Notes under the pieces: model-generated
What the model was told of the DNA's origin: nothing
The model's database searches: none
What the model saw: only the letters and a program-made list of their open reading frames with translations
IMG/VR virus record: IMGVR_UViG_3300025536_000189
Coordinates: 1-30,868 of that record
Length of the DNA stretch: 30,868 nt
Strand: one strand, 5' to 3'
DNA from: a virus
Made by a program: the position numbers and the translations under genes
In this document: piece after piece, positions 2,130 to 30,868 of the stretch
Layout of the letters: each line of letters begins with the position of its first letter
Numbering within the stretch: position 1 is the first letter of the stretch

Positions 2130-3302
2130 ATGCAAACACAAGAACGAAGTGTGTCCCCGACGTCTGAAGATACATTCTTCACGGCCATTGGGAATACAAA
2201 ACCCTACTTCAAAGCGGCATTTGAAGGAGAGCCGGGAACCGGCAAAAGTTGGACTGCCGCATTAGTAGCGATTGGTCTTCATAAGAAGATCAACAGTAAG
2301 AAGCCGATTGTGCTTATTGATACCGAGAAAGCATCAAAGTTCTTGGTCCCGCTTTTCAAAGAGCATGGGATCGAAGCGATGGTGCGCGAGACTCACTCGC
2401 TGGCCGACTTGGTAAAAGCAATGAAGCTCTGTTCAGACGGATACTCCGACATTATGGTGATCGACAGTATCACTCACATCTGGATGGACTTCCAAGAGGC
2501 GTACAAGCGAAAGCTAAACCGACAAGTGTTCCAGATTCAAGATTGGATGTCGATCAAGAGCGAGTGGAATAAATACTTCTCAATTCCACTTGTACAATCG
2601 CCCCTCCATATTCTTGCAACCGGCCGTGTGTCGGATCGCATGGAACAGGAAGTCGATGAGGATGGCCGAAAGGAGTTCACCAAGACCGGAGTGAAGATGC
2701 AAGCGGAAAAGAACGCAGCATACGAATTCGATGTCTTGGTCCTCATGGAACGCCACGAACTCATCCAACGCAAGAAGCGTGAAGTCTGGCGACAGTCGGT
2801 GGTCCTTAAAGGCCGAGGCAATCTCCTCGACGGTGCGGTGTTTAAAAACCCTACCTACGACGACTTTGCTCCTGCAATTGAAGCGATCATCAAAGACCCC
2901 GTCGCGGCCCGATTCAGCTATGCCGAGCAAGATGCCGGAGAGCTGATCAAGACCGAACAGGATAAGCGCCAATGGATCAATGCCAAGAAGCGATGGCTAG
3001 AAGAAATCGAGGGATACCTCGTATCGATCTGGCCAAGCACGAGTGCTGCGGAAAAGAAAAACAAAACCGACGCGCTCGAGCATGCCTTCAATACTCGAAG
3101 TTGGTCCGCCATCGAAATGATGTCACCGGAACTCCTCGAGGATGGCTACGCCCGGGTCCGAGAATTTGCTCAGGCAAAGATTGCTGAAGCAAAAGGCGAA
3201 CTTCCACCGGAACCAACTCCGGCCGAGAAGTTTGATAAAGACCTGCGAGATTCAAAAGAAGACGTACCTAAAAAAGACAAGGCTAAGAAAAGTGGCAAAT
3301 AA
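2130..3302 (+). CDS. Phage RecA-fold ATPase, Sak4-like recombination protein (AAA_24)
   Basis: A 390-residue P-loop ATPase. Walker A is GEPGTGKS (residues 33-40). Walker B is IMVIDSI (about 110-116). A sensor-like segment, HILATGRVSDR, follows. The Walker A/B spacing, the TEKASKF segment between them and the phage context fit the AAA_24/Sak4 group, RecA-like proteins that stimulate single-strand annealing and phage homologous recombination. The last 40 residues are Lys/Glu/Asp-rich and probably disordered. Neighbours are a replication initiator and RusA, which together make a replication-recombination module. No separate SSB gene is seen. The start at 2130 follows an A-rich leader without a Shine-Dalgarno site. 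Confidence 0.85.
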   Translation: MQTQERSVSPTSEDTFFTAIGNTKPYFKAAFEGEPGTGKSWTAALVAIGLHKKINSKKPIVLIDTEKASKFLVPLFKEHGIEAMVRETHSLADLVKAMKLCSDGYSDIMVIDSITHIWMDFQEAYKRKLNRQVFQIQDWMSIKSEWNKYFSIPLVQSPLHILATGRVSDRMEQEVDEDGRKEFTKTGVKMQAEKNAAYEFDVLVLMERHELIQRKKREVWRQSVVLKGRGNLLDGAVFKNPTYDDFAPAIEAIIKDPVAARFSYAEQDAGELIKTEQDKRQWINAKKRWLEEIEGYLVSIWPSTSAAEKKNKTDALEHAFNTRSWSAIEMMSPELLEDGYARVREFAQAKIAEAKGELPPEPTPAEKFDKDLRDSKEDVPKKDKAKKSGK

Positions 3303-3308
3303 GTAAAT

Positions 3309-3395
3309 TGGCCACTGACTCAGCCCTTGTCGTAGTGGCGTGAGGGCTGAGATCGGTGGCTAAGTACCGATAAGGCCATAAAGGTCGAACCTAAA
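3309..3395 (+). ncRNA. Candidate structured RNA: H-type pseudoknot plus hairpin
   Basis: No ORF lies in 3303-3427. S2 is a perfect 9-bp stem CTCAGCCCT (3319-3327) with AGGGCTGAG (3343-3351). Its 15-nt loop contains GTGGC (3335-3339), which can pair with GCCAC (3311-3315) just 5' of S2 and so form an H-type pseudoknot. A second GTGGC (3356-3360) competes for the same GCCAC. A third perfect stem follows at once, ATCGGT (3352-3357) with ACCGAT (3366-3371), and overlaps that second GTGGC. AGGT-CGA-ACCT (3382-3392) is a further short inverted repeat. The mutually exclusive pairings resemble a switch or attenuator in the leader of the replication gene. It matches no riboswitch or ribozyme consensus I can recall. 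Confidence 0.5.
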
Positions 3396-3402
3396 AACAA
3401 TC

Positions 3403-3439
3403 AGAGAGAAACATCGATTAAACATCGATGCTTCTCTCT
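3403..3439 (+). promoter_or_regulatory. 15-bp hairpin just upstream of the replication initiator start
   Basis: AGAGAGAA (3403-3410) pairs with TTCTCTCT (3432-3439), and CATCGAT (3412-3418) pairs with ATCGATG (3424-3430), separated by one A-C mismatch around a 5-nt loop. It ends 12 bases before ATG 3452 and has no T run, so it looks like an operator or translational control element rather than a terminator. The centre is also a direct repeat (AAACATCGATT followed by AAACATCGATG). Confidence 0.6.
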
Positions 3440-3451
3440 TCCAACAAAACC

Positions 3452-3994
3452 ATGGACGAACACAAAAGTAGCTTAATACCAAATAGTACACAAATTCCAA
3501 ATCTTATTTTGGATTTAGTTATTCCGCGTATATCCGAAATCGAAGGACGATGTCTGCTCTACATTTGCCGTCGCACATTCGGATTCCATAAAGACACTGA
3601 CCGCATTAGTTTCTCTCAATTCACCGAGGGCATAAAAGACCGGCGAGGCGTGGTCTTGGATTACGGTGCCGGGATTGCACGATCCTCGGTCGCCAAAGGC
3701 CTCAAGCATCTTGTCCAAGCCGAAGCCATCAGGATCAGGAAAACCACTAAGGGAAACTACTACCAAATAAACCTGCATATGGATGTGGAAAAAGTAGTCC
3801 GTCTGACGAACCAGTTCGCCGGACGGATCGAAAGTGGTCCGTGGCGCGTACCGAAATCGGTTCGTCGGACGAACACACAAAACCTAGGAAACAAAGAGAA
3901 ACAAAGTATTACGCACCCTGTGCATAACTTCGGGGAAATGACCCGGGAACTTGCAAGAAAAATGAGCATTAATAACAGAAAAAATAACCACTAA
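3452..3994 (+). CDS. Replication initiator, phage O-protein N-terminal domain type
   Basis: A 180-residue protein. Residues about 8-100 match the winged-helix pattern of the phage replication protein O N-terminal domain: STQIPNLILDLVIPRIS, then the helix of EGRCLLYICRRTFGFHKD, then IARSSVAKGLKHLVQ as the likely recognition region. Such proteins bind the phage origin and recruit helicase. The C-terminal 70 residues are basic and disordered-looking and may carry the helicase-loading part, but no lambda P or helicase gene follows. ATG 3452 is preferred over in-frame ATG 3428 because the latter lies inside a hairpin and adds only eight non-conserved residues. RusA follows after 6 bases. Confidence 0.8.
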   Translation: MDEHKSSLIPNSTQIPNLILDLVIPRISEIEGRCLLYICRRTFGFHKDTDRISFSQFTEGIKDRRGVVLDYGAGIARSSVAKGLKHLVQAEAIRIRKTTKGNYYQINLHMDVEKVVRLTNQFAGRIESGPWRVPKSVRRTNTQNLGNKEKQSITHPVHNFGEMTRELARKMSINNRKNNH

Positions 3995-6251: not shown

Positions 6252-6804
6252 GATCAAGCGAACAATCAGGGATGCAATAGTCATCGACCCGCTAATTTCA
6301 ATTGCCAAATTGCAGGATGCTCTCTTTGACAAAGGATATCGCACCGCCGCGAACGCTCCTCTTCATTGGCACTATGTGGCAAAGCTGCGTGACAAGATGC
6401 ACCGCCAAGCGATCGAGAATGTGGACCACAAAAAAGTAAATGAGCGTGTGTCAGAAATGAAGGAAAGATATCGCCTTGTATTCGAGCGACTTATACGCAT
6501 CGCTTTTTATAGCGATGACTTAAAGAAAGAAGGAGTACAACCGCCAAGCTACCGGGACCAGATCAGCGCACTCCGAGAGATCAGTCGTCTCGACGTTGCG
6601 ATATTCAACGCTGAACTTGATGCCGGAATCTTCGAGCGACACATTGGTACGCTTGAAATAGAAAAGCGCAGCAGACCACTGCCGCCAGAATTAAAAATGC
6701 AGATGCTCAAAGCATTCGCAAATTGGGGAATCATTCCAAAAGAAATACTACATGCAGAGCCAACCATCACAATCAAACCCGAACGAGCAAGAGTGGTGGA
6801 GTAA
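6223..6804 (+). CDS. Probable terminase small subunit
   Basis: A 193-residue protein directly upstream of the large terminase gene, which is the usual place of TerS, the subunit that recognises phage DNA and hands it to TerL. The N-terminal 45 residues (DAIVIDPLISIAKLQDALFDKGY) could form a helix-turn-helix. The middle (about 55-130) is helical and may oligomerise. The C-terminus, ITIKPERARVVE, could be the TerL-contacting tail. No clear TerS signature is visible, so the call rests mainly on position and architecture. An in-frame ATG at 6196 would lengthen it by nine residues. 6223 gives the smaller overlap with the preceding gene. Confidence 0.6.
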   Translation: MKKPRVQEDKIKRTIRDAIVIDPLISIAKLQDALFDKGYRTAANAPLHWHYVAKLRDKMHRQAIENVDHKKVNERVSEMKERYRLVFERLIRIAFYSDDLKKEGVQPPSYRDQISALREISRLDVAIFNAELDAGIFERHIGTLEIEKRSRPLPPELKMQMLKAFANWGIIPKEILHAEPTITIKPERARVVE

Positions 6805-8209
6805 TAGCGTCGCGTTTCCTGACGACTATCAAGTACGACGAATGCTCGCCAAAACCCTCACAGGATTTTGTCTTGTGTATTTGTCGCATTACTTGGAGAT
6901 AGAACCGGCGTCCTTTCATCCCGAACTGTTGGATACGCTTGGCGACCACAAAGAAAAGATGATCGAGATCATCGGCTTTCGAGGTAGTGCTAAAAGTACA
7001 TTCGGTTCGCTTGCACTTCCGTTGTGGGCAGCGCTTGAGTACCCAGATCGGTATAAGTTTATTCTTCCCATTGCAGATACCGGACTGCAATCAGCAATCA
7101 ACATCGCCAACATAAAAAATGAACTGGAAAATAATCCGTACATCAAGCAAGACTATGGAGAAATAAAAGGGGAGTTCGTAGCAGACTGGACCCTCGAGAG
7201 CGAAGAAGAATGGCAAGCAAAGAATATGCTTCTCTCAAATGGGGTTCGTATTCTTGCACGGTCCCGGGGACAGAAAGTGCGTGGACTGCGTCACAATCAA
7301 CATCGACCAAAGCTCATCATCGTAGACGACCCGGAAGATTTGGAATGGGTACGGACCAAAGAAAACAGAGACAAGACTGAGCGATGGCTACGTGGTGAAG
7401 TGATACCTGCCATCGATGAATTAAACGGTCGCCTTGTCGTGATCGGAAACCAACTACACACCGATGCGCTTATGGCCCGCTTGAAGCGAGACAAAACATT
7501 CAAGCAGTTAGACTATCCGCTTGTTAAAAAAGGAAAGATCATGTGGCTTGGAAAATATCCGGACCAAGCCGCTCTCGATGCACAAAGAGACAAGGTGGGT
7601 TTGAATGCATACCAACGTGAGTACCTTCTCAAGGTGGTCCCGGAAGAAGGAGCTGATGTGCATGAAGACTGGATCAAATACTACGACAGAGTTCCTCCTG
7701 AAATGGAAGGTGGACTCAACGGTACAGGCATTGACCTCGCTATCTCAAAAAAAGAAACGGCAGACTACACCTCGATGGTCTCCGGTGTATCGTTTGTGCG
7801 TGACGGCATCCCGAAGATTTACATCAAGCCAAACCCGATCAATGCTCGACTCTCATTCCATGAAACCATAGAGACAACGAAAGCAATGTCAGTCACCAAT
7901 CCGTTCGGAATATTTTTCGTGGAAGATGTTCAGTATCAACGCGCAGCGATAGAAGAAATGGAACGCGCACTCTTGCCTGTCATCGCCATGCGTGCCGGCG
8001 GCGACAAGCGTGCGCGACTGCGTGCAATCGCAATCTACATTCAAAATGGCACGATCGTATTCCCGAGAAAGGGATGTGAAGATTTAATTATTCAACTGCT
8101 TGGATTCGGTGTGGAAGAACACGACGACTTAGTCGATGCGTTTGTGTATCTCATCCTCGGCCTTGTACAACAGGGCATGCAGAATCCCGAAGTAATAGGA
8201 CTCATATGA
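6752..8209 (+). CDS. terL: Terminase large subunit
   Basis: A 485-residue packaging motor. The ATPase domain has Walker A GFRGSAKST (75-83) and Walker B LIIVDDPED (188-196), followed by a coupling region with VVIGNQLHTD. The RNase H-fold nuclease domain has GIDLAISKKETADYT (D328 as first acidic ligand) and a C-terminal HDDLVDAF (457-464) supplying the last acidic ligands. It cuts concatemeric DNA and pumps it into the prohead through the portal. Length is standard. The start at 6752 overlaps the preceding gene by 53 bases. ATG 6842 would also keep Walker A, so the exact start is uncertain. Confidence 0.95.
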   Translation: MQSQPSQSNPNEQEWWSNSVAFPDDYQVRRMLAKTLTGFCLVYLSHYLEIEPASFHPELLDTLGDHKEKMIEIIGFRGSAKSTFGSLALPLWAALEYPDRYKFILPIADTGLQSAINIANIKNELENNPYIKQDYGEIKGEFVADWTLESEEEWQAKNMLLSNGVRILARSRGQKVRGLRHNQHRPKLIIVDDPEDLEWVRTKENRDKTERWLRGEVIPAIDELNGRLVVIGNQLHTDALMARLKRDKTFKQLDYPLVKKGKIMWLGKYPDQAALDAQRDKVGLNAYQREYLLKVVPEEGADVHEDWIKYYDRVPPEMEGGLNGTGIDLAISKKETADYTSMVSGVSFVRDGIPKIYIKPNPINARLSFHETIETTKAMSVTNPFGIFFVEDVQYQRAAIEEMERALLPVIAMRAGGDKRARLRAIAIYIQNGTIVFPRKGCEDLIIQLLGFGVEEHDDLVDAFVYLILGLVQQGMQNPEVIGLI

Positions 8210-8397
8210 ACCAACCGCCTAAAATCAGAGTGACTCGTGAGGTCCCACCGGAATGGGAAGAAATCATGCATCTTGCCAAGCAGATAAAGATGGGCGAGAT
8301 CGTGATTAAAATACAAGACAATAAGGTCATTTTGGCTGAATACACCATAAAGCGTCGGACCGACAGCTCGGATGACTTTACAGCCTTTCCACTCTGA
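8206..8397 (+). CDS. Small DUF2292-like protein
   Basis: A 63-residue protein translated from an ATGA overlap with terL. Its core, MGEIVIKIQDNKVILAE followed by KRR, resembles the DUF2292 family, short proteins with a G.I.I.IQDGKV...E...K.R pattern found in bacteria and phages. Function is unknown. No Cys or His metal sites and no membrane segment are present. It is the last gene before the promoter and structured RNA at 8405-8543. Confidence 0.7.
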   Translation: MNQPPKIRVTREVPPEWEEIMHLAKQIKMGEIVIKIQDNKVILAEYTIKRRTDSSDDFTAFPL

Positions 8398-8404
8398 AAA
8401 ATGC

Positions 8405-8432
8405 TTGCACCCTAAATGAGATTTGATATAAT
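8405..8432 (+). promoter_or_regulatory. Sigma70-type promoter before the structured RNA
   Basis: TTGCAC (8405-8410) and a perfect TATAAT (8427-8432) are 16 bases apart. Transcription would begin near 8439. It is the best-matching promoter I see in the window and points at the short RNA and, if read-through occurs, the head operon. Confidence 0.7.
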
Positions 8433-8438
8433 AAAGGG

Positions 8439-8543
8439 GTAAGTTGAAAATTTAAGTGCGTCCAGTCTGACTTGTAACCCAAGAGGGCTTGTGACATGAA
8501 TTCGTCTCGAAAGAGATGCGCTCATGTTGCAAGCCCTTTTTTT
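8439..8543 (+). ncRNA. Self-terminating structured RNA between terL and portal (~105 nt)
   Basis: This stretch starts at the predicted promoter start site and ends at a T run. The 5' domain pairs GGGT-AAGT (8437-8444) with ACTT-gta-ACCC (8470-8480). A second AAGT (8454-8457) competes for the ACTT. After a 3-nt linker comes a long hairpin: AGGGCTTG (8484-8491) with CAAGCCCT (8530-8537), a tandem TG/TG wobble, ACATGA (8494-8499) with TCATGT (8522-8527), an interrupted segment, then TCTC-GAAA-GAGA (8505-8516) capped by a GNRA tetraloop. It could be a phage small RNA, or a leader whose terminator is controlled to gate the head genes. It matches no known family that I recognise. Confidence 0.6.
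8484..8543 (+). terminator. Long hairpin with T run (terminator or attenuator)
   Basis: A 16-bp lower helix (8484-8499 with 8522-8537, including two G-T wobbles), an interrupted middle and a GAAA-capped 4-bp tip, followed by T7 (8537-8543). The portal ATG lies only 12 bases after the T run, so transcripts for the head genes must pass it or start elsewhere. Confidence 0.75.
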
Positions 8544-8554
8544 GTTGCCATTTT

Positions 8555-10750
8555 ATGAATTTTTTAGATAAAGCATTAAACACAATAGGTCTCCTCCGCA
8601 AGGCAAATAATTTGTCGCTTGCTTCTGGTATTTCAGAAAATGATCCATTCACTCTTTGGAGTAGATCAAGAAAAACATCCATGGATAAAGCGATGAGTGT
8701 TTATAACTCATGGGTCTATGCGGCTGTGCGTGCCATTGCCGAGGAATTGGCAAAAACGTCTTTCAGGCTTTTTCAAGTAAACAAAGATGGTGTGCATGAA
8801 GAAATATTTGACCATGAACTTCTCGATCTTTTAGATGGCGTTAACCCTTTTCAGACCGGTTACGAATTACGGTATCTTACCGCTTCGCATCTTGAGCTTA
8901 CGGGAAATTCATACTGGCTTTTAGACGGCGTTGAAAAAGATACCGACAAACCGAAGGCAATTTTTCTCCTCAATCCACGCTATACCAATCCGGTCCCTGC
9001 TCCACTGCCGGAGTTTATAAAAGGCTATAGCTATTCGATTGATGGCAAGACTGTAACCTACAAGCCAGCGCAAATTCTTCATCTTAAATATCCTGATCCA
9101 AATGATCCCTATCAAGGTATCGGTACTGTTCAGGCAATAATCGACTGGATCGAGTCAGACAACTTTGCATCGGAAGTAAATCTTAACTATTTCAAGAACG
9201 GTGCTCGTCTCGGCGGACTTCTAAGCTCCGAAAATGCAATTACCGATGCGCAGATGAAAGTTCTTCGTGCTTCATTTGAAAATTTGTACAAAGGCGCAGG
9301 CAACGCATATCGAGTTGCGGTGCTTCCTAAGGGAGTTAAATACGATGAAGCATCCAGTAATCCGAAGGATATGGATTTTGCAAACCTTCAGCAAGTAATG
9401 CGGGACAAAATTCTTGCAGGATTTCGTGTCCCCAAAACTATTCTTGGTGGATCGGAATCGGAAACTAATCGAGCTACTGCTGAAACTTCTAATTATGTTT
9501 TTGCCGCTCGCACAATCAAGCCAAAAATGGAAATGATCGTTCAGCAACTGAATGAATTTCTTGTTCCAAGATATGGAGACAATCTATATTTGGATTTTGT
9601 TGATCCGGTTCCTGAAGATAAGGTACAAAAAATTGAAGAAATGAAAGCCGCCGTAGCCCTTCAGCCAGTTATGAGTGTCAATGAAGCTCGAGAAGAATAT
9701 TTCGGTCTTGATGGAGTAGATAACGGTGAGAATGTCATGACTGATTTTTCAAAAGTAGCACTTGGAAAACCTAAGCCAAAGTCTCTCAATCGAACAGGCA
9801 GGAAAAACACTACTGCTGATAAGAAACCCTCAACCAGAGGGGCAAAAAATACGAAGGCACGAAAAGTAATGTCCGAAGAAATCGCAAAGCGTGTTGCCGA
9901 CTCAATTGATGCAAGCAAAAAGCAATTCGAAGAAGTCAAAACCAAAGCTCGACGAGATCTCTCTGGTCTTTCAAATTCAGAGTATGAAGTTTTGTATAAA
10001 GGCTTCGTACTTCGAGTTACTCGCTACGAAAATTTACAGCATGAAGCAATAAAGAAGTTTAATGACAATCAAAAAGCGGTTGTCCTGTCAAACCTGAATC
10101 GATTTGTTGAAAAGAAGTCTTGGAAAATAACTCAAGAAGATATTTTTAATAAAGAAAATTGGATTGGTGTAATGGTTGATCTGTCCAAACCTATCTTGAG
10201 TAACTTGTATGAATCGGAAGGAAAAGAAGCAATGCAGCTCTTGGGATCGAGCGACTTCCGAATCACTCCAGAAGTTCGTAGGGCATTAGATCGGTCGATA
10301 GAACTAATGGCTGAAAGTTATAACGAAACCACTTTGGGTCTTCTTAAGGATGCTATCGAAGAAGGTCTTGCCGAAGGAGCGTCACTTCCACAGTTGGAAA
10401 GCAAAATCTCGAATATTTATGCTTTTAGTGACGAAGTCCGTGCAGCACAAGTTGCCCGAACGGAAACATTCAGAATCGCAAATGATTCAACGAAGGAAGC
10501 GTGGAAACAAACCGGTGTAGTAAAGACGATCAAGTGGTATACGGCCGTTGATGAAATGGTCTGCCCATGGTGTGAAGCGATGAACGGAAAAGTTATCTCC
10601 ATCGATGAGAATTTTTATAACCAAGGTGATGTGCATACGGGTAACGATGGAAATGATTTAGACATAACTTATGACGATGTTGGAGCTCCACCGCTTCATG
10701 TGAGCTGTCGATGCTACACCAGACCGGAGGAGATAAGTATAGAAGGATAA
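8555..10750 (+). CDS. Portal protein fused to Mu F-like head morphogenesis domain
   Basis: A 731-residue fusion. Residues about 1-400 are an HK97-type portal, the dodecameric ring through which DNA enters: VYAAVRAIAEELAKTSFRLF near the N-terminus, LELTGNSYWLL, and FRVPKTILGGSES in the C-terminal half. Residues about 405-455 are a Lys/Arg-rich linker. The C-terminal part ends in a phage Mu F-type minor head domain: ARTETFRIAN, then VCPWCEAMNGKV, then PPLHVSCRCY, whose Cys and His residues suggest a metal site. Mu F-like domains are normally a separate gene, or an effector-bearing one, next to the portal. ATG 8555 is chosen because the in-frame codons from 8516 lie within the terminator hairpin. 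Confidence 0.9.
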   Translation: MNFLDKALNTIGLLRKANNLSLASGISENDPFTLWSRSRKTSMDKAMSVYNSWVYAAVRAIAEELAKTSFRLFQVNKDGVHEEIFDHELLDLLDGVNPFQTGYELRYLTASHLELTGNSYWLLDGVEKDTDKPKAIFLLNPRYTNPVPAPLPEFIKGYSYSIDGKTVTYKPAQILHLKYPDPNDPYQGIGTVQAIIDWIESDNFASEVNLNYFKNGARLGGLLSSENAITDAQMKVLRASFENLYKGAGNAYRVAVLPKGVKYDEASSNPKDMDFANLQQVMRDKILAGFRVPKTILGGSESETNRATAETSNYVFAARTIKPKMEMIVQQLNEFLVPRYGDNLYLDFVDPVPEDKVQKIEEMKAAVALQPVMSVNEAREEYFGLDGVDNGENVMTDFSKVALGKPKPKSLNRTGRKNTTADKKPSTRGAKNTKARKVMSEEIAKRVADSIDASKKQFEEVKTKARRDLSGLSNSEYEVLYKGFVLRVTRYENLQHEAIKKFNDNQKAVVLSNLNRFVEKKSWKITQEDIFNKENWIGVMVDLSKPILSNLYESEGKEAMQLLGSSDFRITPEVRRALDRSIELMAESYNETTLGLLKDAIEEGLAEGASLPQLESKISNIYAFSDEVRAAQVARTETFRIANDSTKEAWKQTGVVKTIKWYTAVDEMVCPWCEAMNGKVISIDENFYNQGDVHTGNDGNDLDITYDDVGAPPLHVSCRCYTRPEEISIEG

Positions 10751-24083: not shown

Positions 24084-25148
24084 ATGGACAACAATAAGAT
24101 AAAATTTGACCATCGGCTTCAAACGCCCCAACCACACATTCTTCAGCTGATCGCTGAGATTGATGGTATTCGCGGTGAATTTAAGTCAGGATTGCGAATG
24201 ACCCCGCAAGCAATCACGAGCCTAAAACGCTCTGTGCTTGTTACTTCTGCAGGTGCATCCACTCGTATCGAGGGAGCAAAAATAACAGACGAAGAAGTTG
24301 AAAAAATTATGCAAGGTCTTGCGGTCTCAAAATTTGCAGATCGTGATTCACAGGAAGTGCAGGGATATCTCGAGACTTTGCAAAACGTGTTTGATAGTTT
24401 TCAATCACTACCACTTCGTGAAGGAATGATTCAATCACTCCACAACGAACTTCTTAAATACTCAGAGAAAGATAAACTTCATAAAGGAAAATATAAAAAA
24501 GGTGAAAACACTGTAGGTGTGCTTGATGAAAAAGGCAATATTGCAAAAATCATGTTTGATCCTACACCGGCATGGGCTACGCCGGCTGAGATGACAGAAC
24601 TCGTGGAATGGACACAGGTAGCCCTTGAGGAAAACAGATTCCATCCATTACTCGTAGTGGCCAATTTTATAGTTGAATTCCTAAAGATTCACCCGTTTGA
24701 AGATGGTAACGGCCGTCTTTCGCGCGTAATCACAAACCTCCTGCTCCTCCGATCGGGCTATTTATTCGTGCAATATGTCTCTCACGAACAGATTGTAGAG
24801 CGTCGCAAGGATGAATACTATGTTGCTCTTCGTAAATCACAGGAAACATTCAAGACTCCTGATGACACCATCGGCCCGTGGCTCAATTTCTTCCTCTCGG
24901 TTTTGAAAGAGCAAGCTACAAAAGCTCTCACATACCTTGAAGAAGAACATGTAGAAGACACTCTCTCACCGAAACAATTCGAAGTCTGGAAGTATATATC
25001 GAAAGTTGGTGAAGCAAGCCCGGGGGAAATTGTAAAAGCGACCGGAATAGTAATGCCCACGGTCCGTCAAGCACTTCTTAGATTATTAGAACTGGAAAAA
25101 GTAAAGCGCATAGGTCGAGGTCCGGGAACTAGATATGTAAAAATTTAA
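24084..25148 (+). CDS. Fic family AMP-transferase with C-terminal winged helix
   Basis: A 354-residue Fic protein. The catalytic motif HPFEDGNGRLSR (from H203) matches HxFx(D/E)GNGRxxR fully, so adenylyl (or another nucleotidyl) transfer from ATP to protein hydroxyls is expected. An N-terminal inhibitory motif STRIEG (S59-E63-G64; S/TxxxEG/N) shows a self-inhibited class II enzyme. The flap region KGENTVGVLDEKG lies between. The C-terminus (about 295-354: LSPKQFEVWKYISK, ATGIVMPTVRQALLRLLELEKV) is a winged helix, suggesting DNA binding. Targets are unknown. It opens the operon: Mod starts 3 bases after its stop. The role may be regulation of the cassette or an added toxin activity. Confidence 0.9.
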   Translation: MDNNKIKFDHRLQTPQPHILQLIAEIDGIRGEFKSGLRMTPQAITSLKRSVLVTSAGASTRIEGAKITDEEVEKIMQGLAVSKFADRDSQEVQGYLETLQNVFDSFQSLPLREGMIQSLHNELLKYSEKDKLHKGKYKKGENTVGVLDEKGNIAKIMFDPTPAWATPAEMTELVEWTQVALEENRFHPLLVVANFIVEFLKIHPFEDGNGRLSRVITNLLLLRSGYLFVQYVSHEQIVERRKDEYYVALRKSQETFKTPDDTIGPWLNFFLSVLKEQATKALTYLEEEHVEDTLSPKQFEVWKYISKVGEASPGEIVKATGIVMPTVRQALLRLLELEKVKRIGRGPGTRYVKI

Positions 25149-25151
25149 TTT

Positions 25152-27089
25152 ATGTCAAAAAATACTAAAAAAATAAACTTAACATCGTCAGATCTTAGTG
25201 AAGAAAAACTTCAAGAACTAAGATCAATACTTCCGGAAGTTTTTTCTGAAGAAAAAATCGACTGGGAAAAACTCCGAGCAGTTCTCGGGGATAATATTGA
25301 TCCGCGCGTTGAAAAGTTCAGTTTTACTTGGGCGGGTAAAAGCACTGCGATTAAGAATGTGATCATCCCAAGCACATCAACTCTTCGACCTGCGAAAGAT
25401 GAAAGTATTAATTTTGATACTTCAGAAAATATTTTTATTGAGGGAGATAATTTAGAGGCTTTGAAACTGCTTCAAAAAGCATATTTTGAAAAAATAAAAG
25501 TAATTTACATCGATCCTCCTTATAATACGGGATCAGATTTTGTTTACAAAGATGACTTTAAATCTGCACTAAAAGGATACCTTTCTCAAACAGGACAAGT
25601 TGATGGCGAAGGGCATAAATTACAGACAAACAAAGAGACAAGCGGTCGATTCCATAGTGACTGGCTTTCAATGATGTACCCACGTCTTAAATTAGCATGG
25701 AATTTAATGTCTGATGACGGGGTTATTTTCATCAGTATTGATGATAATGAGGCTCATCACTTGAGAGTGGTATTGGATGAAATATTTGGTGCAGAAAATT
25801 ATCTGAATACATTTTGTTGGGTAAATAACTTAAAGGGGCGCCAAATATCTGGATCGGGAGCTGCAAAAACTTATGAATATGTAATTGCATATGCTAAGAA
25901 AATAGTAAATGTTGGACTATTTGATATGTCTATTGAAAAATTAAAGGCATTAATGCCAAGCACCTATAAAGGTTTTAATTATGAAACCGAAAGTGACGGT
26001 GATGGTGATTATGTTGTAAAAAATGAACTATATAATACAAACTCAGCCTTCAATGAAGAAACTCGTCCGAGTCTCGTATTTAATATTTATTACAACTTTG
26101 AAACGAATGATGTGAAGTTTTCTTCAACAAATGAAGACGTAGATTATGAAGGTTATACAAAAATTGTTCCAAAAAAGAATAATAACGGTACTCACAAATA
26201 CCATGCATGGCGATGGAGTAAAGATAAGATAAAAAATGAAACAGATGATCTAAAATTTGTTAAAACCGATGATGGTGCAAAAATTTATACGAAAATTAGA
26301 GAGTATCTAAATACATCCCTTAAAGATCTTATAACTGATATAACAACCTCGAATGGGGCAAGCGATTTAAAAGAACTTTTTGATGGAAGTAAGTATTTTG
26401 ATTATCCAAAACCTGTTGCGTTACTAAAAGTTTTCTTGAGACAAGGTTCTGAAGATTCTATAATCATGGACTTTTTTGGTGGATCGGGGACTACAGCACA
26501 GGCAGTAATGGAATTGAACGAAGAAGATCAGGGAACTAGAAAATTTATCTTAGTACAACTACCTGAAATAATTGATCCATCTGACCCAGCTTATAAAGCA
26601 GGATTTGTAACTATAGCTGATATTGCAAAAGAAAGAATCCGCAGAGCTGTCAAAAAGCTTAATTCTGGATTCAAAGTTTTCAAGCTTGGTCTCTCAAATT
26701 ACCCAGAAAATAATTTTGAATTTGATCCAGAAAAATCTGAATCAGAAAACAAGATTGCATTCCAAAACTATTTGGTAAAAGCGAAGCAAACTTCGTTATT
26801 TGAAGATGACGAAAATCAAATTGATATTGTTTTTGAAAACATAATTAAAGAAGGTTTCTCTTTAAACTCAAAAATAACCGAAACTAAACTAGCAGAAAAT
26901 AATCTCTATATTGTCGAAGACAATAGCAGAAAGCTATTAATTTGTTTAGATAAGAAGGTCGAAAACAGCACAATTAAAATACTGACGGGTGCTGAATATA
27001 AAAACCAAGTCTTTATTTGCATCGACCAAGCCCTTGATGACACAGATAAGGCTAATCTTGGATTGAGTCTAGAATTAAAAACTATCTAA
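25152..27089 (+). CDS. mod: Type III restriction-modification methyltransferase (Mod)
   Basis: A 645-residue DNA N6-adenine methyltransferase. IEGDNLEALKLLQ precedes motif IV DPPYN (D121-N125), and motif I DFFGGSGTT (from D440) comes later, the beta-class order used by type III Mod proteins. The long middle section (about 200-400) between them is the target recognition domain that sets specificity. Mod binds as a dimer, modifies one strand of an asymmetric site, and is required for Res. Length is normal (about 600-680). It has no frameshift or simple-sequence tract that would mark a phase-variable mod. By eye it is more A/T-rich than the phage genes, hinting at separate acquisition. Confidence 0.92.
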   Translation: MSKNTKKINLTSSDLSEEKLQELRSILPEVFSEEKIDWEKLRAVLGDNIDPRVEKFSFTWAGKSTAIKNVIIPSTSTLRPAKDESINFDTSENIFIEGDNLEALKLLQKAYFEKIKVIYIDPPYNTGSDFVYKDDFKSALKGYLSQTGQVDGEGHKLQTNKETSGRFHSDWLSMMYPRLKLAWNLMSDDGVIFISIDDNEAHHLRVVLDEIFGAENYLNTFCWVNNLKGRQISGSGAAKTYEYVIAYAKKIVNVGLFDMSIEKLKALMPSTYKGFNYETESDGDGDYVVKNELYNTNSAFNEETRPSLVFNIYYNFETNDVKFSSTNEDVDYEGYTKIVPKKNNNGTHKYHAWRWSKDKIKNETDDLKFVKTDDGAKIYTKIREYLNTSLKDLITDITTSNGASDLKELFDGSKYFDYPKPVALLKVFLRQGSEDSIIMDFFGGSGTTAQAVMELNEEDQGTRKFILVQLPEIIDPSDPAYKAGFVTIADIAKERIRRAVKKLNSGFKVFKLGLSNYPENNFEFDPEKSESENKIAFQNYLVKAKQTSLFEDDENQIDIVFENIIKEGFSLNSKITETKLAENNLYIVEDNSRKLLICLDKKVENSTIKILTGAEYKNQVFICIDQALDDTDKANLGLSLELKTI

Positions 27090-27093
27090 CACT

Positions 27094-29721
27094 ATGAAGC
27101 TTAAATTTGATGCAAACCAAGAATACCAAATTGATGCAATAAAAAGTGTTGTAGGTCTCTTTGAAGGTCAAAACAAGGAGGTAAGTAAATATATTGCAGG
27201 AAACGGAATTCTCGGAATATATCCCAATGCACTATCTATTTCAAAAGAAGATATTCTTGAAAATACAAAAAGGATTCAAGAAGGAAACGATATAAAAACA
27301 AATGAAAACGTCAAAGATCTAGACTTTTCGATTGAGATGGAAACTGGTACAGGAAAAACGTATGTGTATTTGCGTACGATTTTCGAGTTAAATAAAAACT
27401 ACGGATGGAAAAAGTTTATTATTCTCGTACCATCAGTGGCTATTCGTGAAGGTGTTATAAAAACATTAAACATAACAAAGGATCACTTTGCTGATCTTTA
27501 TAATGGCACACCTTATCGTCATTACGAGTATCAATCAAAAAATATTTCTCAGGTTAAACATTTTGCAGATAGTAGCAATCTTGAGATCATGGTGATGACA
27601 GTTGGAGCTTTCAACAAAGATTCAAACGTACTTTATAGTGAACGTGATCAGATGCATGGGGAACAACCGATCAGTTATATTCAAAAAACAAATCCTATTT
27701 TGATACTTGATGAGCCGCAAAACATGGAAGGAGAATCCACAAAGAAAGCACTGGAAAACTTCAACTCATTGCTTCGACTTCGATATTCAGCAACACACCG
27801 AAACTTATACAACCTAGTCTATCAACTAGCTCCTTATGATGCATATCAATTGGGACTTGTGAAAAAGATAGAAGTCTTCTCTGTGGTTGACGATGGTGAT
27901 GCGGGTAACGGTCCGGCAATAACTCTGCTCGAAGTTAAACCAAGCAAAACTGCGCTCAAGGCTCAGATTGAAGTTGTAGTGAAGGACGATCATGGAAATA
28001 ATAAGAAAAAGAAAATTGCTGTAAAACAAGGTGACGACCTTGAAAAGAAAACAAATAATCGTTCGTATGAAGGTTACATTGTCGATGAGATGACCGCAGA
28101 TGCTCCAGATTTCGGGTCTGTTGGATTAATCAGATTTAGAAACAACATCCAAATTAAACAAGGTGAAGGTGTTGGTGGAAATAAAGAAGATTTGATGCGA
28201 GAACAGATAGTTGAAACGATCAAGCTCCATTTTGAAAAAAAGAAAAAACTTAAAGAATTCAATATAAAGGTATTGTCATTATTTTTCATTGATAAAGTAA
28301 GTAGTTATGTAAGTGATGATGGTTTTATAAAAAGTACATTTATTAAAGAATTTAATACAATTAAAAAAGAATACGATGCCGATGACCTCGATGTAGCTCA
28401 AGTACACAAAGGTTATTTTGCGATGAAAAATGCAAACGAATATTTAGAAAGAGATTCCGCGATAGCAGAAAACAAAGAAGCATTCGAACTAATCATGCGA
28501 GACAAAGAAAGACTTCTATCTTTTGATGAGCCTACTGAGTTTATATTTTCACACTCAGCCCTAAAGGAAGGATGGGACAACCCAAATATTTTCAATATTT
28601 GTACTCTCAACATGACAAGCTCGACTGTTAAGAAGCGACAAGAGATTGGTCGTGGAATGCGTCTTTGTGTAGATCAAACAGGTCAACGAATATTCCAGCG
28701 AAACATTAATCTACTTTCTGTTATTGCAAACGAGAGCTACTCAAGCTACATCTCAAGTCTACAAGCAGAATTTGTAGAGGATGGAATCTATAAAGCACCT
28801 CCTGCACCTCACAATGCGAAACAAAAAGTTACTGTTAAATTAAAGAAAGGATTTCAAAATGATAATAACTTTCAAGCTATATGGGATCGTATCTCGAAAA
28901 AGACACGCTATGTGGTACGCATTGATGCAAATGAAGTAGTAAAAAGAGCAGCAAAAAGAATCGCAGAACTCAAGGTTCAAAAGCCTCAGATTAGAGTAGA
29001 AAGGGCAGGTATATTAATCGCTAAAGAGGGGATTAATGCGACAATTATTGGAGGTCAATCGCAAGAATTATCTCAAATTAAACGCTCGATCAATTGTATT
29101 GAGACTATTAAGAATGAAACAAAACTAACACGAAACTCTGTAATTGAAATACTTGAGAAAGCGAAGAACTTCGAATCTTTAATTAATAATCCAGAAAAAT
29201 TCATTTACGAAGTTATAAAAATAATTCGTGAGGAATTGGTACTTGATTATATTCAACAAGTCAGTTATGAAATTCTGCCTGAAGAATATGGCATTGAACA
29301 ATTTGAAAATATTCAAAGTTATAAAGATTCAACACAGCCAGTAAAAAACTCAATTTATGAGGCAATTGTATTTGATTCAGAAGTAGAACAAAAATTCGCT
29401 CTGGACCTTGATAAGGATGAACGAATAAAGCTATTTATAAAACTACCGGGATGGTTCAAGGTCGGAACTCCTGTCGGTGGATATAACCCAGACTGGGCGA
29501 TTGTCACAAGTAAGATTGATCTTCAGGGTAATGAATCGAGTGAAAAAGTTTACTTTATAATCGAAACAAAAGGTGGCACAAACCTTCGTCCAACAGAAAA
29601 GGCTAAAATTAATTCTGCCAAGAAACACTTTGAAGTGATATCTGTAAATTATAAAGAGATCAATGCGGGTTATGATCAATTTAATAGAGAATGTTTATCA
29701 AATTATGAAAGACAGAATTAA
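27094..29721 (+). CDS. res: Type III restriction enzyme Res subunit
   Basis: An 875-residue helicase-nuclease. Walker A is TGTGKT (84-89), the motif II box is LDEPQ (about 203-207) in place of DEAD/DEAH, and the helicase end has SALKEGWDNPNIF and QEIGRGMRL (about 516-525). The C-terminal PD-(D/E)xK nuclease is seen as NPDWAIV (about 798-804) and IIETKG (about 822-827). With Mod it slides or signals along DNA by ATP use and cuts 25-27 bases from one of two head-to-head unmodified sites (established for EcoP1I/EcoP15I). It starts 4 bases after mod, and all motifs are intact, so an active system is likely. Confidence 0.92.
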   Translation: MKLKFDANQEYQIDAIKSVVGLFEGQNKEVSKYIAGNGILGIYPNALSISKEDILENTKRIQEGNDIKTNENVKDLDFSIEMETGTGKTYVYLRTIFELNKNYGWKKFIILVPSVAIREGVIKTLNITKDHFADLYNGTPYRHYEYQSKNISQVKHFADSSNLEIMVMTVGAFNKDSNVLYSERDQMHGEQPISYIQKTNPILILDEPQNMEGESTKKALENFNSLLRLRYSATHRNLYNLVYQLAPYDAYQLGLVKKIEVFSVVDDGDAGNGPAITLLEVKPSKTALKAQIEVVVKDDHGNNKKKKIAVKQGDDLEKKTNNRSYEGYIVDEMTADAPDFGSVGLIRFRNNIQIKQGEGVGGNKEDLMREQIVETIKLHFEKKKKLKEFNIKVLSLFFIDKVSSYVSDDGFIKSTFIKEFNTIKKEYDADDLDVAQVHKGYFAMKNANEYLERDSAIAENKEAFELIMRDKERLLSFDEPTEFIFSHSALKEGWDNPNIFNICTLNMTSSTVKKRQEIGRGMRLCVDQTGQRIFQRNINLLSVIANESYSSYISSLQAEFVEDGIYKAPPAPHNAKQKVTVKLKKGFQNDNNFQAIWDRISKKTRYVVRIDANEVVKRAAKRIAELKVQKPQIRVERAGILIAKEGINATIIGGQSQELSQIKRSINCIETIKNETKLTRNSVIEILEKAKNFESLINNPEKFIYEVIKIIREELVLDYIQQVSYEILPEEYGIEQFENIQSYKDSTQPVKNSIYEAIVFDSEVEQKFALDLDKDERIKLFIKLPGWFKVGTPVGGYNPDWAIVTSKIDLQGNESSEKVYFIIETKGGTNLRPTEKAKINSAKKHFEVISVNYKEINAGYDQFNRECLSNYERQN

Positions 29722-30868
29722 AGATACAATTCAAGATTGCAATATAAACTTCCTGATTGGATCAGGTCTTTCTTCTCCATATCTTAAACCGCTTGGCAAT
29801 ATCGAAATACTATTGACTAAACTTGAAGATCAAGAAATTAGTGACATAGAGAAAAAGGTTATACGTGCTTCGTTATATAAAAAGTTTTTTGAAGATGCGA
29901 TATTTAAAAATTCTAAAATATTGGAACCAGATACTGATGTCGAAGCGGTTTTGAAACACTATCACAATTTTTTGAAATCAGTGAACTCAATTTTGCTTCG
30001 TCGAAAGAGTACCATCCTTAGCAAAGAAGTGAATTTGTTTACAACCAACTTTGACATTTTTCTTGAGAAAGCTCTCGAGGACACAGCACTCGAATTTAAT
30101 GACGGTTTCAATGGTAGATTTCTTCCACAATTTAATCTTACTAATTTCAAAAAGTCTAGATTTAAGAAAAGTCTGCACTACGATAATATTTCAGAAATAC
30201 CAGTATTTAATCTATTAAAATTGCATGGTTCGCTATCATGGGAGCTTATAGATAGGTCGGGTAATTATGAGATTGTATTTTCCTGTGATCTAAAACATCT
30301 TACCGCTATCCAAGGTAAGCTACCTGCTGCGGCACATTTAATTGATGTACAAGCCGACTCAACAATAGAAACACTCATAGCAGCCGCGGCAGGCAAGACA
30401 CTCGATCCGTCAGTTCAAGTATTTATGGAAGCATACGAGAAATTACCGATAGTTAATCCAAATAAAGACAAGTTTCGTCACACCCTTCTAAACCAGACTT
30501 ATTATGAGATGTTACGCATTTATTCAAATGAACTAGAAAAAGAAAACACAATTCTTTTTGTTATGGGTTTTTCATTTGCAGATGAACACATACGAGAAAT
30601 CACACTTAGGGCTGCTAATTCTAATCCCACAATGATGATTTACATTTTTGCGTATAGTTCAAAAGGCAGAGCAGAAATACAAGCACGATTTGATTCAAAA
30701 AACATCAAAAATAATAATGTTTTGGTTATTGGACCTGAAATAAAAGATGACGGGGGCGACAAATTCAAGTACGATCTTGAAACAATAAATTCACAAATCT
30801 TCGACTGCCTCCTTGATAAAGAGGATTCAAAAGAAACACCACCAGATGCACCTAACGCATCTGCATAA
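29705..30868 (+). CDS. SIR2-like protein, probable antiphage NADase
   Basis: A 387-residue SIR2-like (SIR2_2) protein. It has the dinucleotide loop FLIGSGLSS (G19-S20-G21), NLFTTNFDIF (N115 and D117), LLKLHGS (H174) and VMGFSFADEHIREI (about 288-300). The Asn and His correspond to the catalytic pair needed for NAD hydrolysis in ThsA-type and SIR2-HerA proteins. Such effectors deplete NAD during phage infection. Length resembles the SIR2 partner of SIR2-HerA systems. The start overlaps res by 17 bases, so it is co-translated with the type III system. An in-frame ATG at 29663 is less likely. The stop is the last codon of the window, so any HerA partner cannot be seen. Confidence 0.85.
   Translation: MKDRIKDTIQDCNINFLIGSGLSSPYLKPLGNIEILLTKLEDQEISDIEKKVIRASLYKKFFEDAIFKNSKILEPDTDVEAVLKHYHNFLKSVNSILLRRKSTILSKEVNLFTTNFDIFLEKALEDTALEFNDGFNGRFLPQFNLTNFKKSRFKKSLHYDNISEIPVFNLLKLHGSLSWELIDRSGNYEIVFSCDLKHLTAIQGKLPAAAHLIDVQADSTIETLIAAAAGKTLDPSVQVFMEAYEKLPIVNPNKDKFRHTLLNQTYYEMLRIYSNELEKENTILFVMGFSFADEHIREITLRAANSNPTMMIYIFAYSSKGRAEIQARFDSKNIKNNNVLVIGPEIKDDGGDKFKYDLETINSQIFDCLLDKEDSKETPPDAPNASA

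Follow-up and report, generated by a model that had tools for sequence, protein, structure and literature searches.

A terminator-overlapping RNA hairpin as a probable transcription attenuator before the late genes of Patescibacteria phages

Introduction

What is the role of a short leader, bounded by a promoter sequence and a terminator, that lies between the terL gene and the portal gene of a virus? The question arose in the window analysed here, the whole stretch of 30,868 nt at positions 1 to 30,868 of the IMG/VR record IMGVR_UViG_3300025536_000189. The leader is flanked by terL (6752-8209; phrog_38 match, 3e-66) on one side and by the portal gene (PF04860, 4e-63) on the other, in agreement with the neighbours named in an earlier note made from the sequence alone. 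The portal gene (8555..10750, + strand), whose start at 8555 was taken from alignment, encodes a portal/Mu-F fusion protein and is the first gene of the late operon. Between terL and the promoter sits an ORF for a small protein of 63 aa (8206..8397, + strand), which is DUF2292-like under the Pfam cut-off and which we treat as a candidate regulator. Elsewhere in the window, a GAPDH gene truncated at the contig start (1-936) is either prophage host flank or a phage-borne metabolic gene, and the right end (24084-30868) carries a defence cluster with a Fic protein, type III restriction-modification (mod gene, 25152-27089; res gene, 27094-29721) and a SIR2-domain protein (gene at 29663-30868).

Results

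The promoter sequence consists of a weak -35 box, TTGCAC (8405-8410, + strand), where relatives have TTGACA or TTGCNN, and, after a spacer of 16 nt, the extended -10 box TGATATAAT (8424-8432, + strand). The TATAAT box to which the earlier note had drawn attention is indeed present at 8427-8432, and it is extended by TG at 8424-8425. Nearly all of the 37 distinct cassettes compared have a TATAAT-like box upstream. Transcription is expected to start near 8438-8441, and the terminated product would be an RNA of ~105 nt, the length of the leader with the terminator at its end. The A/U-rich 5' segment AAGTTGAAAATTT (8441-8453, + strand) recurs among relatives, and A[AG]TT[TGA][AG]A was found in 16 of 37 distinct cassettes versus 3.1 in shuffles. 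The fold of 8437-8543 reached -43.2 kcal/mol compared with -23.4 kcal/mol for shuffles (z = -5.9), and none of 200 shuffles was as good. A leader peptide was considered and rejected, as the relatives contain no consistent short ORF.

Two further DNA motifs accompany some of the promoters. In a subset of cassettes (L004, L008-L010, L012, L013, L038 and L117), GGNCCG occurs just upstream of the -10 box, between it and the -35 box, and is possibly an operator or a Q-binding-like DNA site. A perfect DnaA box, TTATCCACA, lies ~35-50 nt 5' of the -10 box in 11 of 42 distinct upstream segments, with 0.01 expected; examples are both cassettes of G410 (L217; 7508 and 13797), L122 and L009-L013, and the window is without it. 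Host DnaA may influence late transcription at such loci.

Within the leader, the central feature is a putative antiterminator hairpin of 26 nt (8464-8489, + strand). Its outer helix P1 has 5 bp (AGUCU at 8464-8468 with GGGCU at 8485-8489), its inner helix P2 has 4 bp (CUUG at 8471-8474 with CAAG at 8480-8483), the internal loop places GA (8469-8470) on the 5' side opposite a single A (8484) on the 3' side, and the hairpin loop is UAACC (8475-8479). The family keeps this layout, with P1 of 5 bp, GA or AA facing a single A, P2 of 4 bp and a loop of 4-5 nt; the invariant positions are the loop-closing pair and the flank of the internal loop, and the loop sequence itself varies. The last five bases of the hairpin are also the first five of the 5' arm of a very strong intrinsic terminator hairpin (8485-8536, + strand) that is followed by a T7 tract (8537-8543, + strand). 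This switch strand, GGGCT (8485-8489, + strand), has as its partner either the 5' arm of P1 (8464-8468) or the 3' arm of the terminator (8532-8536). The earlier note had described a 5' stem domain and a GNRA-capped hairpin; the GAAA-capped hairpin with its T7 tract was recovered at these positions, and the 5' stem of the minimum-energy fold proved not to be conserved, unlike the hairpin at 8464-8489. The GNRA cap is not kept among relatives, and a pairing of 8437-8440 with 8477-8480 belongs to the window only, being lost in L004 and others.

Variant forms were also seen. Upstream of the portal, L050 and L124 have cassettes with no internal loop and with GCGAAA/GCGCAA loops, and their small proteins have an NEGRPVQ motif in common. 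L025 carries, at 3596-3680, a promoter and a minimal GAGTATTATTATAATACTC-T7 hairpin where the full switch is expected, possibly a reduced switch.

To find relatives, we scanned IMG/VR with terL and inspected the terL-portal gaps of the resulting 35 loci by eye; about 18 of them showed the same layout as the window, so that conservation between terL and portal, on which the earlier note had made its proposal depend, was found. A portal-profile scan contributed 78 further viral loci as well as GTDB genomes, with 80 kept per scan of the >550 relatives found. The GTDB contigs with related loci come from Taylorbacteria, Nomurabacteria, Kaiserbacteria, Peribacteria and other Patescibacteria, and together with the viral loci they identify the carriers of the element as phages and prophages of the ultra-small Patescibacteria. 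Altogether, 42 distinct cassettes from these phages and prophages have the 26-nt hairpin upstream of a terminator. A strict scan of both strands of all loci fetched by then (2.7 Mb) returned 24 distinct matches, each directly 5' of a portal gene, whereas block-shuffled DNA returned none; in a relaxed scan over whole loci, the top match was always directly 5' of the portal. We also built a covariance model of the element (R1) and ran it on whole records and on 380 Patescibacteria genomes. Only three of these sampled genomes gave strong matches, all of them with the cassette at the portal locus, which indicates that the element is not a housekeeping leader of the host. The host-genome matches L174-L176 (E ~0.01) are not the cassette, an exact 20-mer match in L002 lies away from cassette anatomy and was put down to chance, and the weak matches G006:5127 and G388:14299 lack that anatomy. 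In INPHARED, no phage portal among the matches listed exceeded 27% identity, and hence these matches offer no cultured model phage.

The pairs of the hairpin survive changes of sequence. In 36 aligned elements (A4), 96.8% of cells pair, a percentage inflated by the pairing-demanding scanner that collected the elements, compared with 29-48% when partners are slid; the first ~18 relatives had instead been read by eye, all at the same fixed place in the gene order. Both sides had changed in 71 cells versus 19.8 in shuffles, compensatory change was present in 6 of 9 pairs, and RNAalifold returned the identical structure when no structure was supplied. The switch strand was then compared with its two partners in the 42 distinct elements. 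It pairs with P1 at 96.7% and with the 3' arm of the terminator at 97.6% of positions, values subject to the same inflation, and both pairings are possible at 94.3% of positions, compared with ~81% when arms are permuted. Since both pairings of one shared strand are conserved, the two folds exclude each other, which is the anatomy of an antiterminator/terminator attenuator: two conserved, exclusive hairpins, the second of them a terminator before the gene to be controlled. Judged from these sequence comparisons, the element is a real and conserved RNA switch family in Patescibacteria phages.

The predicted energies of the two states lie close together. Across elements, terminator energies span -15 to -42 kcal/mol; the terminator state is ahead by a median of 4.3 kcal/mol (range 7.3 to -1.8), is favoured in 38 of 42 elements, and leads by 6.4 kcal/mol in the window. 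This narrow gap, despite the wide range of terminators, fits a balanced switch. In every leader folded, the terminator was the minimum-energy state, and with so small a gap this suggests that termination is the default and that binding of a factor could override it.

Three phages contain two or three cassettes, placed before portal, protease-capsid or fibre genes. G410 has an extra cassette upstream of its head protease-capsid operon, G395 has extra ones before the protease-capsid operon and before a small fibre-block gene, and the prophage G006 (in AMOR_Bin_147) has one before a gene for a 652-aa fibre-like protein. Each extra cassette has its own TATAAT-like promoter and its own terminator, and a start codon follows the T tract closely. 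The portal and protease genes of G410 and G395 are separated by other genes, and a cassette of its own precedes the protease operon in both. Where a phage has several copies, their P1 or P2 sequences differ and the layout is constant. Such extra cassettes at other late operons argue for one trans-acting late regulator.

The best candidate for this regulator is the small protein. None of the 47 element-bearing loci with upstream sequence lacks it, and phages with several cassettes still have only one copy of it. Its match to DUF2292 (PF10055) scores 17.1 bits against a gathering cut-off of 22, and a weak match was obtained for 4 of 13 members. The protein is not obviously basic, a PDB sequence search gave noise only, and the predicted fold (a helix and a beta hairpin; pLDDT 68, pTM 0.37) is uninformative and too poor for a fold search. 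Protein and element are both present in L073 and both missing in L066, two loci with 66% identity between their portals; four loci (L025, L062, L095 and L272) have the protein and no recognisable element. In L118, L121, L012, L064 and L048, other sequence lies between the protein gene and the cassette, which remains with the late operon. The intervening sequence in L118, a Nomurabacteria prophage, includes a reverse transcriptase gene (2693-3859; RVT_1, 6e-24).

The proteins of L045, L054 and L121, whose RNAs have an AA/AC internal loop, form one clade (support 0.965). The portals of these three are not sisters, and that of L045 is nearest to that of L046 (73%), which has the standard RNA. The protein subfamily thus appears to follow the AA/AC variant better than the portal tree does, which is only suggestive of protein-RNA co-variation, as linkage could explain it because protein and RNA are close neighbours. 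Known regulator families were also searched for: the 13 phage records, some of them maybe fragments, contained no CAT_RBD (PF03123), no NusG family (PF02357) and no Phage_antitermQ domain (PF06530), the last being the only Q family searched.

Discussion

We consider it quite probable that the element is a transcription attenuator gating the late particle genes of Patescibacteria phages. The earlier note had offered an antitermination-controlled leader as one of its readings, and this one is supported by a conserved hairpin that competes with the terminator and by the extra copies before other late operons. According to the mechanism that we propose, a sigma70-type promoter after terL would begin the short leader. 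By default, as we infer from the energies, the terminator would fire and give the ~105-nt RNA, so that the portal gene and the head-tail genes downstream of it stay silent. Late in infection, a trans-acting factor would be made that binds and holds the 26-nt hairpin; the lower 5 bp of the terminator would then stay unformed and its stem would no longer abut the U tract, and RNA polymerase would read through into the late genes. Extra cassettes at other late operons of one phage would answer to the same factor.

For this factor, the DUF2292-like protein encoded just upstream is the likeliest choice, which we put forward tentatively; possible alternatives are an elongation factor of the host and a small ligand. 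More speculatively, the protein might belong to a new class of RNA-binding antiterminators, fixing the hairpin and turning on all late operons, and late genes throughout the phage family might be under RNA attenuation, with protein and RNA as a dedicated, co-evolving pair.

Among other explanations, processive antitermination of the Q type fares best and is still improbable. In this reading, a regulator would load onto either DNA or RNA polymerase, and the hairpin would signal pausing or loading instead of competing with the terminator. The gene order is alike, from the small regulator candidate through the late promoter and the terminator to the late genes, and the GGNCCG subset has its motif where lambda Q, AlpA and perhaps GafZ have DNA elements (PMC11150451). 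However, GGNCCG is lacking in the window and many relatives, the Phage_antitermQ domain was not found in the records searched, and a pause hairpin needs no arm in common with a terminator, yet the arm is shared in 42 cases.

It is very unlikely that the leader acts in the manner of put, as a cis RNA that modifies RNA polymerase and requires no phage protein. The hairpin is near the promoter, and L045, L048, L061 and L120 have a second hairpin upstream, but this second hairpin is not universal, an adjacent terminator would be pointless, and both the terminator overlap and the near-balanced energies are, to our knowledge, foreign to put. The comparison with put RNAs drawn in the earlier note therefore holds only in part.

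We give even less weight to a small regulatory or packaging RNA as the end product, with a terminator that merely ends the transcript. Promoter and terminator do bound ~105 nt beside terL, and an RNA of this length is what termination would be expected to leave; yet structure is kept and sequence is not, so there is no sign of a base-pairing small RNA, and the portal starts 11 nt past the T tract, too tight for a second promoter. A phi29-like pRNA, another suggestion of the earlier note, is not supported: some copies lie away from terL, in front of protease or fibre genes, and in Rfam neither the window nor seven relatives gave a match at gathering score, the pRNA covariance model included; an E-value search produced only chance microRNA matches under the gathering score. 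Least credible is a riboswitch that senses a small molecule through a very small aptamer. The attenuator anatomy could speak for it, as could the invariance of the loop-closing pair and of positions next to the internal loop, but not the 26-nt length, the variable loop, the lack of an Rfam match and the occurrence in phages and at late genes only.

The attenuator reading thus supplies a defined, testable RNA switch and a candidate regulator that together occupy ~250 bp plus a 63-codon gene, small enough for tests in E. coli or in vitro that bypass the uncultured host. In the open-access literature searched, we found no description of this element, nor of late gene control in Patescibacteria phages. 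If the proposal is true, it would give a DUF2292-like protein its first role and define a late-gene switch distinct from Q.

Several known systems share parts of this design. In the Caulobacter GTA cluster, GafYZ gates capsid genes from one upstream promoter by antitermination, as proposed here; GafZ is thought to ride on polymerase, and the available text describes no RNA switch for GafYZ (PMC11150451). Like the phi29 pRNA, the element is a phage RNA near packaging genes, but it has regulatory anatomy, no Rfam match and no tie to a packaging gene. With the HK022 put RNAs it shares promoter-proximal hairpins tied to read-through; we know of no put RNA that overlaps a terminator, whereas the two folds here are mutually exclusive. 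In lambda, a short transcript from the late promoter stops at a terminator before the late genes, and the regulator gene lies directly upstream. By sequence, the cassette has the same late promoter and leader terminator before late genes as Q/pR'/tR' (6S RNA), with a regulator candidate upstream; it differs from the lambda system in the conserved hairpin that overlaps the terminator, in the absence of PF06530 from the records searched, in the several cassettes of some phages and in a switch seated in RNA structure. The RAT elements of BglG, SacY and LicT come close in another respect, since there, as here, a short hairpin with an internal loop overlaps the terminator stem and a protein would fix it; unlike RAT, the element has a single 2x1 internal loop, no CAT_RBD protein among the records searched and phage structural genes as its target. 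By the criteria applied, it belongs to neither the lambda Q nor the RAT class.
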